From Novosphingobium sp. (GTDB lineage Bacteria > Pseudomonadota > Alphaproteobacteria > Sphingomonadales > Sphingomonadaceae): a stretch of 64,000 nucleotides of DNA. The notes under the pieces are model-generated. The model saw only the letters and a list, made by a program, of their open reading frames with translations, ran no database searches and was not told where the DNA came from. The first letter of the stretch is position 1, and each line of letters starts with the position of its first letter. The stretch lies in the NCBI GenBank assembly GCA_016719755.1, contig JADJYM010000012.1, positions 315,001-379,000 on the forward strand, in the 5' to 3' direction. A program made the position numbers and the translations under genes. Of the stretch, positions 28,602-28,848 are shown piece by piece.

Positions 28602-28669
28602 CGAAATTTCCCGGCGCGGCGGCAAAACCCGGTTTACATTGCGCTGCAGCATGGCTAGAGGCCCGGCCC

Positions 28670-28750
28670 ATGTCCTGCATGGCCCAGACCATTATTACCA
28701 CCAAACCGACCGCGCTCAGCGGGGCGGTTGTGGTTGTGCGTCTGGACTGA
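28670..28750 (+). CDS. Candidate leader peptide of asd (26 residues, Thr/Ile then Val rich)
   Basis: The peptide starts MSCMAQTIITTKPT and ends AVVVVRLD. AGAGG (28657-28661) is 8 nt before ATG 28670, and a second in-frame ATG is at 28679. Four Thr codons (ACC at 28688, 28697, 28700, 28709) and two Ile codons (ATT at 28691, 28694) are clustered, followed by four Val codons. This resembles leader peptides such as ThrL and IvbL. It ends 98 bp before asd, whose product lies on the Thr/Ile pathway, and a terminator/antiterminator arrangement follows directly. Confidence 0.6.
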   Translation: MSCMAQTIITTKPTALSGAVVVVRLD

Positions 28751-28795
28751 CACCCAGGACAACCCGCCCCGCACGAGCAGGCGGGGCTTCCATTT
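28721..28795 (+). promoter_or_regulatory. Candidate transcription attenuator upstream of asd
   Basis: Terminator: GCCCCGC (28766-28772) pairs with GCGGGGC (28781-28787), followed by TTCCATTTC. Competing antiterminator: GGGGCGGTTG (28721-28730) pairs with CAACCCGCCCC (28760-28770, one bulged C), which consumes the 5' arm of the terminator. The antiterminator strand begins 9 nt after the last Thr codon. A ribosome stalled at Thr/Ile codons would leave it free, while one that reads to the stop codon favours the terminator. Worked out by eye. Confidence 0.55.
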
Positions 28796-28848
28796 CACGG
28801 AAAATCAAACCCTCGCGCTGCTCCGAATGAACTGAGGAGAAGCACAAG

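Follow-up and report, generated by a model that had tools for sequence, protein, structure and literature searches.

In the bacterium Novosphingobium sp., a second, reserve copy of the aspartate-semialdehyde dehydrogenase gene (asd) is preceded by a short open reading frame (ORF) and a set of alternative RNA pairings. These are best read as a ribosome-mediated attenuator of that gene, in which the state of the leader would be relayed through two downstream pairings (4:5 and 5:6) to the asd Shine-Dalgarno sequence. A probability of about 0.6 is given to this reading. What is seen directly is the conserved ORF, its code, a promoter-like spacing, the pairings with their covariation, and the presence of the leader on the non-housekeeping copy of asd. 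Where transcription starts, that the ribosome stalls, in which order the RNA folds and how the cell would respond are inferred. Throughout, the window means the whole stretch of 64,000 nucleotides that was analysed.

The leader ORF and its gene

The 26-codon leader ORF, MSCMAQTIITTKPTALSGAVVVVRLD, occupies positions 28670 to 28750 of the + strand, just 5' of asd. As the preliminary description had it, clustered Thr codons (four ACC) and Ile codons (two ATT) are followed by four Val codons (GTT GTG GTT GTG). The regulatory codons, T I I T T K P T, lie at 28688 to 28711 (+) and were assigned by reading the leader and from the enrichment of Thr, Lys, Ile and Met in its relatives. Twelve codons separate the last regulatory Thr from the stop. 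The locus has the order expected of an attenuator, with a short ORF of clustered pathway-product codons between a gene and a promoter, the latter recognized by sequence only.

The promoter-like element TTTACA-N17-TAGAGG (28633 to 28661, +) comes from a search of the 60 nt before each leader ATG for the boxes with the highest scores. In the window these are TTTACA at 28633 to 28638 and, 17 nt further on, TAGAGG at 28656 to 28661; a generic sigma-70 scan did not call the element. The best -10-like box ends 6 to 10 nt 5' of the leader ATG in 22 of 23 representative leaders, and TTnAC stands at -35 in 18 of the 23 and in 41 of all 53. The motif TTTAC occurs within -45 to -25 in 38 of the 53 leaders, compared with 0.7% of random 20-nt windows. 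The leader ATG, or a position a few bases 5' of it, is the probable start of transcription, and the leader mRNA is probably leaderless or nearly so. The "good ribosome-binding site" formerly assigned to the leader is probably part of a promoter: its AGAGG (28657 to 28661) falls inside the TAGAGG of the promoter-like element. Because this Shine-Dalgarno-like sequence is then probably untranscribed, translation of the leader ORF is probably leaderless too.

The gene behind the leader (28849 to 29877, +) encodes an aspartate-semialdehyde dehydrogenase of 342 amino acids, with matches to PF01118, PF02774 and TIGR01296. Against the last of these, the asd_B model, it scores 403.0 bits, above the curated cut-off of 324.2. 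The routes to Lys, Met, Thr and Ile branch at the Asd reaction. Downstream of the gene lies a perfect 31-nt inverted repeat (29982 to 30012 and 30029 to 30059, with a 16-nt gap), which precedes an oppositely oriented large ORF at 30100 to 32853.

Another asd, with 51% identity, is found on a separate contig of the same genome. In a sample of 119 genomes of the family, 118 have an asd match. Six of them, beyond the window's own, carry both a window-type asd (71 to 76% identity) and a housekeeping-type copy (51 to 52%). The leader is present on all seven window-type loci of this sample (L001 and L083 to L088). None of 13 sphingomonad housekeeping asd loci (L002 and L089 to L100) matches the leader model R1, introduced below, with more than 12.4 bits. 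The asd that carries the leader is the second copy, and the housekeeping copy shows no leader.

Relatives of the leader and their code

Model R1 was built from 19 leaders and run on 100 loci. It matches 24 of the 27 alphaproteobacterial window-type asd loci among them, a figure made up of the 19 training loci, which match by construction, and five of eight others, three of the five being close relatives of training rows. Three window-type loci are missed (L011, L013 and L018), and 60 actinobacterial asd loci gave no match to R1 above 12 bits. In whole genomes, R1 matches 42 of 385 of the class (E <= 1e-3) and 21 of 296 of the order (E <= 1e-4), unrelated hairpins included.

Thirty matches of the class search and four further matches in the window's own genome were followed up as loci L112 to L145. 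Twenty of these 34 lie just upstream of asd (the window included), six upstream of thrS and eight upstream of neither. Three loci (L132, L136 and L141) and the four from the window's genome (L142 to L145) look like unrelated hairpins and were discarded as false positives. Matches of the order search with no asd downstream (L162 to L166) were likewise rejected as asd leaders. At L138, a gene is preceded by the same type of hairpin and by a leader-like ORF (MFAQMHARKNAAMTRSGGP...) that contains several Met codons.

Altogether, 53 alphaproteobacterial leaders have asd downstream, with peptides of 22 to 30 amino acids. Grouping at 70% sorts fifty of them into 21 sequence clusters, and there are near-copies among the 53 (L003/L157, L017/L088 and L152/L153). 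At L156 the asd start is uncertain, the asd match beginning 362 nt after the model hit. A conserved short ORF with covarying stems, which the preliminary description had proposed to look for in related genomes, is what these 53 leaders provide. At the level of sequence, the leader family upstream of asd is real and the observation is confirmed.

A codon-based scan for short ORFs passed 21 of 100 regions; its criterion also passed 3 of 2000 shuffled regions. The 21 are the window, eight of ten deliberately added known leaders, ten others, and L191 and L193, which were not counted. In the latter two, the ORF is the end of the upstream neighbouring gene, which we take to be leuB. In Rfam, none of 4227 families, the thr leader included, matches the window at its gathering score, and E values up to 10 bring up only chance-level matches. 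Five relatives (L116, L121, L127, L010 and L024) gave no Rfam match.

Among 144 sampled genomes of the class, 129 have asd at E <= 1e-40. In 22 of these with two or three asd genes (G178 and G245, with two matches, being left out), a single copy carries the leader in 12 genomes and no copy does in 10; leaders on both copies were not seen. Eleven of the 12 come from the model or the codon scan and one (G161) has a degenerate leader of 31 bits; L191 and L193 were set aside here too. Besides the window's gene, seven asd genes in this sample are of the window type. Model R1 matches three of them (L168 weakly, L172 and L173) and finds no leader at the other four (L167, L169, L170 and L171). Because the model finds no leader at these four or at L011, L013 and L018, the leader is not a fixed part of the window-type asd.

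A tree built from 55 asd proteins unites the housekeeping copies in one clade (15 rows, no leader). Window-type asd joins actinobacterial asd in a group of 27 rows (support 100/99), made up of 16 with a leader, 7 without and 4 actinobacterial proteins. This grouping suggests an ancient transfer of asd between phyla. A third deep lineage stands apart, and all of its 13 rows have a leader, the rows having been picked because the model matched them. The leader label needs 6 changes on the tree, and the starred branches force at least 2. The leaders of two window-type genes (L012 and L014) belong to the same cluster as those of L116 and further loci of the third lineage. Different asd genes would thus have come to lie behind a leader that either remained in place or moved. 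The simplest guess is gene replacement behind a fixed leader.

The amino-acid code was read from the residues that precede segment 2 of the RNA (described below). In 23 representatives these are 335 residues, with 29.6% Thr, 14.3% Lys, 11.0% Ile and 4.8% Met; Asp or Glu occurs twice. In the rest of the leader peptide (237 residues) the four amino acids together make up 6.7%. Relative to the asd proteins of 22 of the 23 loci (7807 residues, L085 omitted), binomial p values are 4e-55 for Thr, 6e-18 for Lys, 1e-6 for Ile and 4e-4 for Met, all overstated, since the sequences are related. The enrichment of Met is modest. Thr and Lys are found in all 53 leaders, Ile in 37 and Met in 25, and nine of the 23 representatives have all four.

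The pathway from aspartate through Asd leads to Thr, Lys, Ile and Met. The leader had been described as a Thr/Ile-codon leader, and its Thr and Ile codons stand. As far as the codon content of the relatives tells, the code is wider and comprises Thr, Lys, Ile and Met, not Thr and Ile alone.

Codon choice in the leaders is also distinctive. Ile codons are ATT and ATC in a ratio of 27:16, versus 67:288 in asd genes (p 5e-9). The preference for ATT may tune stalling or avoid unwanted pairing. Lys AAA is commoner in leaders as well (25:24, versus 44:205 in asd). The Lys codons sit in stem 1, and pairing may be part of the reason why they are kept. The architecture does not by itself account for Lys, however, because thrS leaders of the same build have only 5% Lys.

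Alternative pairings and the output of the leader

Six RNA segments can be distinguished in the window. Hairpin 1:2 (28697 to 28734, +) overlaps the Thr/Lys codons and was defined by folding and by pair counts in 19 leaders. Complementarity and folding give segment 2 (28719 to 28731, +), the partner of segment 1 or segment 3, and segment 3 (28759 to 28772, +), the partner of segment 2 (as antiterminator) or segment 4. Hairpin 3:4 (GCCCCGC / GCGGGGC, 28766 to 28787, +), identified by a scan for terminator-like sites and by pair counts, has 7 GC pairs and is followed by TTCCATTT. Segment 4 and part of the loop, GAGCAGGCGGGG (28775 to 28786, +), are complementary to segment 5, CCTCGCGCTGCTCC (28811 to 28824, +). 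Segment 6 (28834 to 28845, +) comprises the asd Shine-Dalgarno sequence GAGGAG (28834 to 28839) and its flank.

Segment 5 can form 12 pairs with segment 4 (GAGCAGGCGGGG : CCTCGC(G)CTGCTC) or pair with the Shine-Dalgarno region, its 5' part being complementary to segment 4 and its 3' part to the asd Shine-Dalgarno sequence. Examples of 4:5 found by eye in relatives are AGATGCGGGG : CCCCGCATCT at L009 and GACGGGGT : ACCCTGTC at L139. At L126 there is no room for segment 5.

The GC hairpin of the preliminary description was found again. The exclusive pairing that it proposed between 28721-28730 and 28760-28770 proved essentially right, the core of the antiterminator pairing being a perfect 9-nt inverted repeat (28719 to 28727 and 28764 to 28772). 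Two terminator-like sites lie in 28550 to 28900, compared with 0.4 +/- 0.6 in shuffles. For the 1:2 hairpin (28695 to 28735) the folding energy is -20.8 kcal/mol (z -3.24); it is -32.2 (z -2.43) for 28715 to 28780, which reaches as far as segment 3, and -61.5 (z -2.44) for the whole leader (28660 to 28800). Scores are modest for the terminator-like hairpin alone (28752 to 28800, z -1.87) and for 28715 to 28800 (z only -0.45). The recurrence of ORF and pairings in relatives is stronger evidence than such single-sequence fold scores.

In the 19 leaders, 87.5% of cells are paired in 1:2 and 3:4 taken together, and 10 changes are double-sided, versus 2.4 in shuffles. Helix 1 (1:2) contributes 80.0% of cells paired, 3 of its 11 pairs being changed on both sides, and helix 2 (3:4) 98.5%. 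For the competing pairing 2:3 the values are 95.5% and 3 double-sided changes versus 0.3. A measure of further pair types gave no excess over shuffles (64 of 500 for 1:2 and 3:4; 486 of 500 for 2:3).

The specificity of the pairings was assessed by a swap control, in which one representative of each of 21 clusters was paired with its own or with other clusters' partners in 20000 permutations. Three leaders (L009, L120 and L126) are excluded, automatic segment finding having failed there, and L122 is included with its hairpin mis-assigned. Permutations did as well as the true partners in 0 cases for 2:3, 3 for 4:5 and 93 for 5:6. Own partners were no better for the controls 3:5 (18240) and 3:6 (19772), and the negative control 4:6 was borderline (744). 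Median p within the 15 window-type clusters is 0.003 for 2:3, 0.033 for 4:5 and 0.19 for 5:6; within the other six it is 0.09, 0.21 and 0.08. Because the signal is weaker within these subsets, much of that for 5:6 is between lineages. The pairings 4:5 and 5:6 exclude each other, since they share at least three bases of segment 5 in 21 of 21 representatives. The leaders as a family have mutually exclusive pairings with support from covariation.

The attenuator would work as follows. Transcription would yield a leaderless or nearly leaderless mRNA that begins with the leader ORF. A shortage of charged tRNA for Thr, Ile, Lys or Met would stall the ribosome over segment 1, segment 2 would pair with segment 3, and segment 4 would be freed. 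Segment 4 could then neither close 3:4 nor leave segment 5 alone; it would capture segment 5, and the asd Shine-Dalgarno sequence would be exposed. When amino acids are sufficient, the ribosome would run on, 1:2 and 3:4 would form, segment 5 would fold onto the Shine-Dalgarno sequence, and asd would be poorly transcribed and/or translated.

The relay to the Shine-Dalgarno sequence is the preferred form of this mechanism, though not a proven one. Part or all of the control may act on translation, as is suggested by the poor U-tracts of most relatives and by the ability of segment 5 to pair with either segment 4 or the Shine-Dalgarno sequence.

Folding calculations are in part consistent with such a relay. 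With the 5' side of segment 2 masked and the RNA taken to the asd start codon, the minimum in the window is 2:3 plus 4:5 (-52.5 versus -47.4 for 3:4 plus 5:6). The former combination beats the latter in 15 of 21 representatives; in only 8 of the 21 is it also the minimum over all folds. When 20 nt of asd coding sequence are added, equilibrium folding of the window leaves the Shine-Dalgarno sequence unpaired at 0.22 and 0.22, with no release on stalling. Over the 21 representatives the same calculation gives a small rise, from 0.25 to 0.35, and the unpaired fraction is higher with a stalled ribosome than with a ribosome at the stop in 16 of 21 (Wilcoxon p 0.005). Because the release at equilibrium is small or absent, the relay would need kinetic ordering.

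Another explanation, possible though rather unlikely, is classical transcription attenuation and nothing else. Hairpin 3:4 would then be an intrinsic terminator, the downstream complementarities would be incidental, and only the codon set would be widened. The window hairpin is indeed terminator-like, TTCCATTT giving it a fair T-tract with 5 T in 8 bases, so plain termination at the window copy is possible. T-rich tails also follow the hairpin in some leaders of the third lineage (L116 and L119), and the competition of 2:3 with 3:4 is the best-supported pairing. Against this, the eight bases after the stem have at least 5 T in only 1 of 21 representatives, namely the window, and in 4 of 50 leaders overall, and at most 3 T in 18 of the 21, counts in which the automatic stem ran into the T-tract in a few leaders. 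The pairings 4:5 and 5:6, moreover, covary over all clusters. The preliminary description had also placed control of asd at a terminator. Its exclusive pairings were retained; intrinsic termination as such is not well supported across the family, in which most U-tracts are poor.

Poor U-tracts in most relatives would also suit a mechanism in which leader translation is coupled to termination by Rho or by other means; once the ribosome has left the RNA, Rho would work together with the hairpin and its weak U-tail. That leader genes have a role together with Rho is noted in an excerpt of PMC4833913. This explanation leaves 4:5 and 5:6 unaccounted for and is improbable.

Less probable still is a trans-acting peptide or small RNA released from the leader, with attenuation as a secondary matter, like rnTrpL/peTrpL of S. 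meliloti. That system is an alphaproteobacterial precedent according to the available part of PMC7298713, and S. meliloti trpL is leaderless according to that of PMC10117765, as the asd leader ORF probably is. In the asd leader, however, it is mainly the identity of the codons and the segments that pair which are conserved, and the C-terminal half of the peptide varies. The leader also stands immediately upstream of asd or thrS, and a role in trans would be compatible with attenuation in any case. Chance, that is, GC-rich inverted repeats with a spurious ORF, could appeal to the modest single-sequence scores of the hairpin alone and of 28715 to 28800 but is refuted by the comparative data, with 53 leaders, a common code, promoter spacing and covariation, and hardly any likelihood is left to it.

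Known systems and the leaders of thrS

The thrL and ilv attenuators of gammaproteobacteria have a leader with end-product codons, pairings 1:2, 2:3 and 3:4, and a biosynthesis gene downstream. The asd leader shares the short ORF with end-product codons, the mutually exclusive pairings and the position before a biosynthesis gene. It differs in serving a second asd, in a code that includes Lys and Met, and in an ORF that is probably leaderless. Further differences are the mostly poor U-tract, the extra pairings 4:5 and 5:6 onto the Shine-Dalgarno sequence, and the lack of an Rfam match.

Leaders of erm and cat answer antibiotics, and ileS T-boxes bind tRNA directly. In ermC and cat leaders and in actinobacterial ileS T-boxes, as proposed here for asd, a stalled ribosome or the state of a tRNA decides whether the Shine-Dalgarno sequence is hidden; the ileS T-boxes are called Shine-Dalgarno-sequestering in an excerpt of PMC1262725. 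Unlike these, the asd leader would sense codon-specific starvation through a six-segment relay.

Leader-peptide attenuation has been described or proposed in an alphaproteobacterium, with the ilv and trpS leader coding sequences of Caulobacter (PMC4117421). The available portion of that paper names ilv and trpS, not asd, and "asd" there stands for aSD (anti-Shine-Dalgarno). A word search of the main text of Corbino 2005 (PMC1273637) and Naville 2010 (PMC2965389) gave no "asd".

The statement of the preliminary description that no attenuator of this type is described for alphaproteobacterial asd is nearly right. It has to be qualified by SEP5 of S. meliloti, called "possibly a leader peptide" in the passages of PMC10117765 that deal with it. 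There, SEP5 is a uORF with six Thr and three Lys codons before an "aspartate dehydrogenase" gene; its translation is shown by Ribo-seq and Western blot, and it is conserved only in Sinorhizobium. The same passages give no RNA structure. The gene downstream of SEP5 is probably asd. Going by this published description, SEP5 and the window leader are alike in their Thr and Lys codons and in lying upstream of a (probable) asd. The Thr/Lys cluster of SEP5 is near the 3' end of its ORF, whereas 12 codons follow the last Thr in the window leader, which has no Thr/Lys cluster close to the stop.

Other alphaproteobacterial asd genes (L186, L194, L232, L238, L240, L247 and L249) are preceded by a different uORF, in which a run of Thr and Lys lies close to the stop. 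These uORFs resemble SEP5 as far as its published description goes, and there is one asd match per genome. That of L249, 395 nt upstream of asd, is doubtful.

As far as the literature search shows, the asd leader would be a variant of ribosome-mediated attenuation not previously described, with a predicted response to amino acids. No asd attenuator of this kind was found in the open literature. An earlier prediction of leaders for asd or thrS may be contained in Vitreschak 2004 and Lopatovskaya 2010, which reportedly treat the attenuation of amino-acid and aminoacyl-tRNA operons.

If the attenuator is as proposed, a number of alphaproteobacteria would have a starvation-gated second asd, with a single leader pooling the signals of four end products. 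It would be a compact case of sensing several amino acids, with a leaderless attenuator uORF and with attenuation relayed to translation initiation.

Six leaders of the same build stand upstream of thrS (L123, L127, L131, L134, L137 and L140). Their gene was identified as thrS by a family scan at L127 and by eye, from similar downstream sequence, at the other five. With 36% Thr and 5% Lys among 95 residues, these leaders form a natural contrast to the asd code and would serve as built-in controls for it.

A broader interpretation, tentative and held at well under even odds, is that of a modular device. A leaderless uORF and a six-segment relay would read scarcity of Thr, Ile, Lys and Met and open the Shine-Dalgarno sequence of a reserve asd. 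The device would stand before two deeply separate lineages of asd and, recoded mainly to Thr, before thrS, its code being retuned to the gene served. The annotation of the genomes that carry it would gain a short ORF and a structured RNA outside Rfam.

The thrS genes themselves vary in extent. That of L127 is without the N-terminal part of the model (it matches 170 to 552 of 565), a part that presumably includes the editing domain. In two genomes of the window's family (L160 and L161), a leader with a run of Thr and a hairpin stands before a gene which was judged by eye to be a thrS that includes the N-terminal part.
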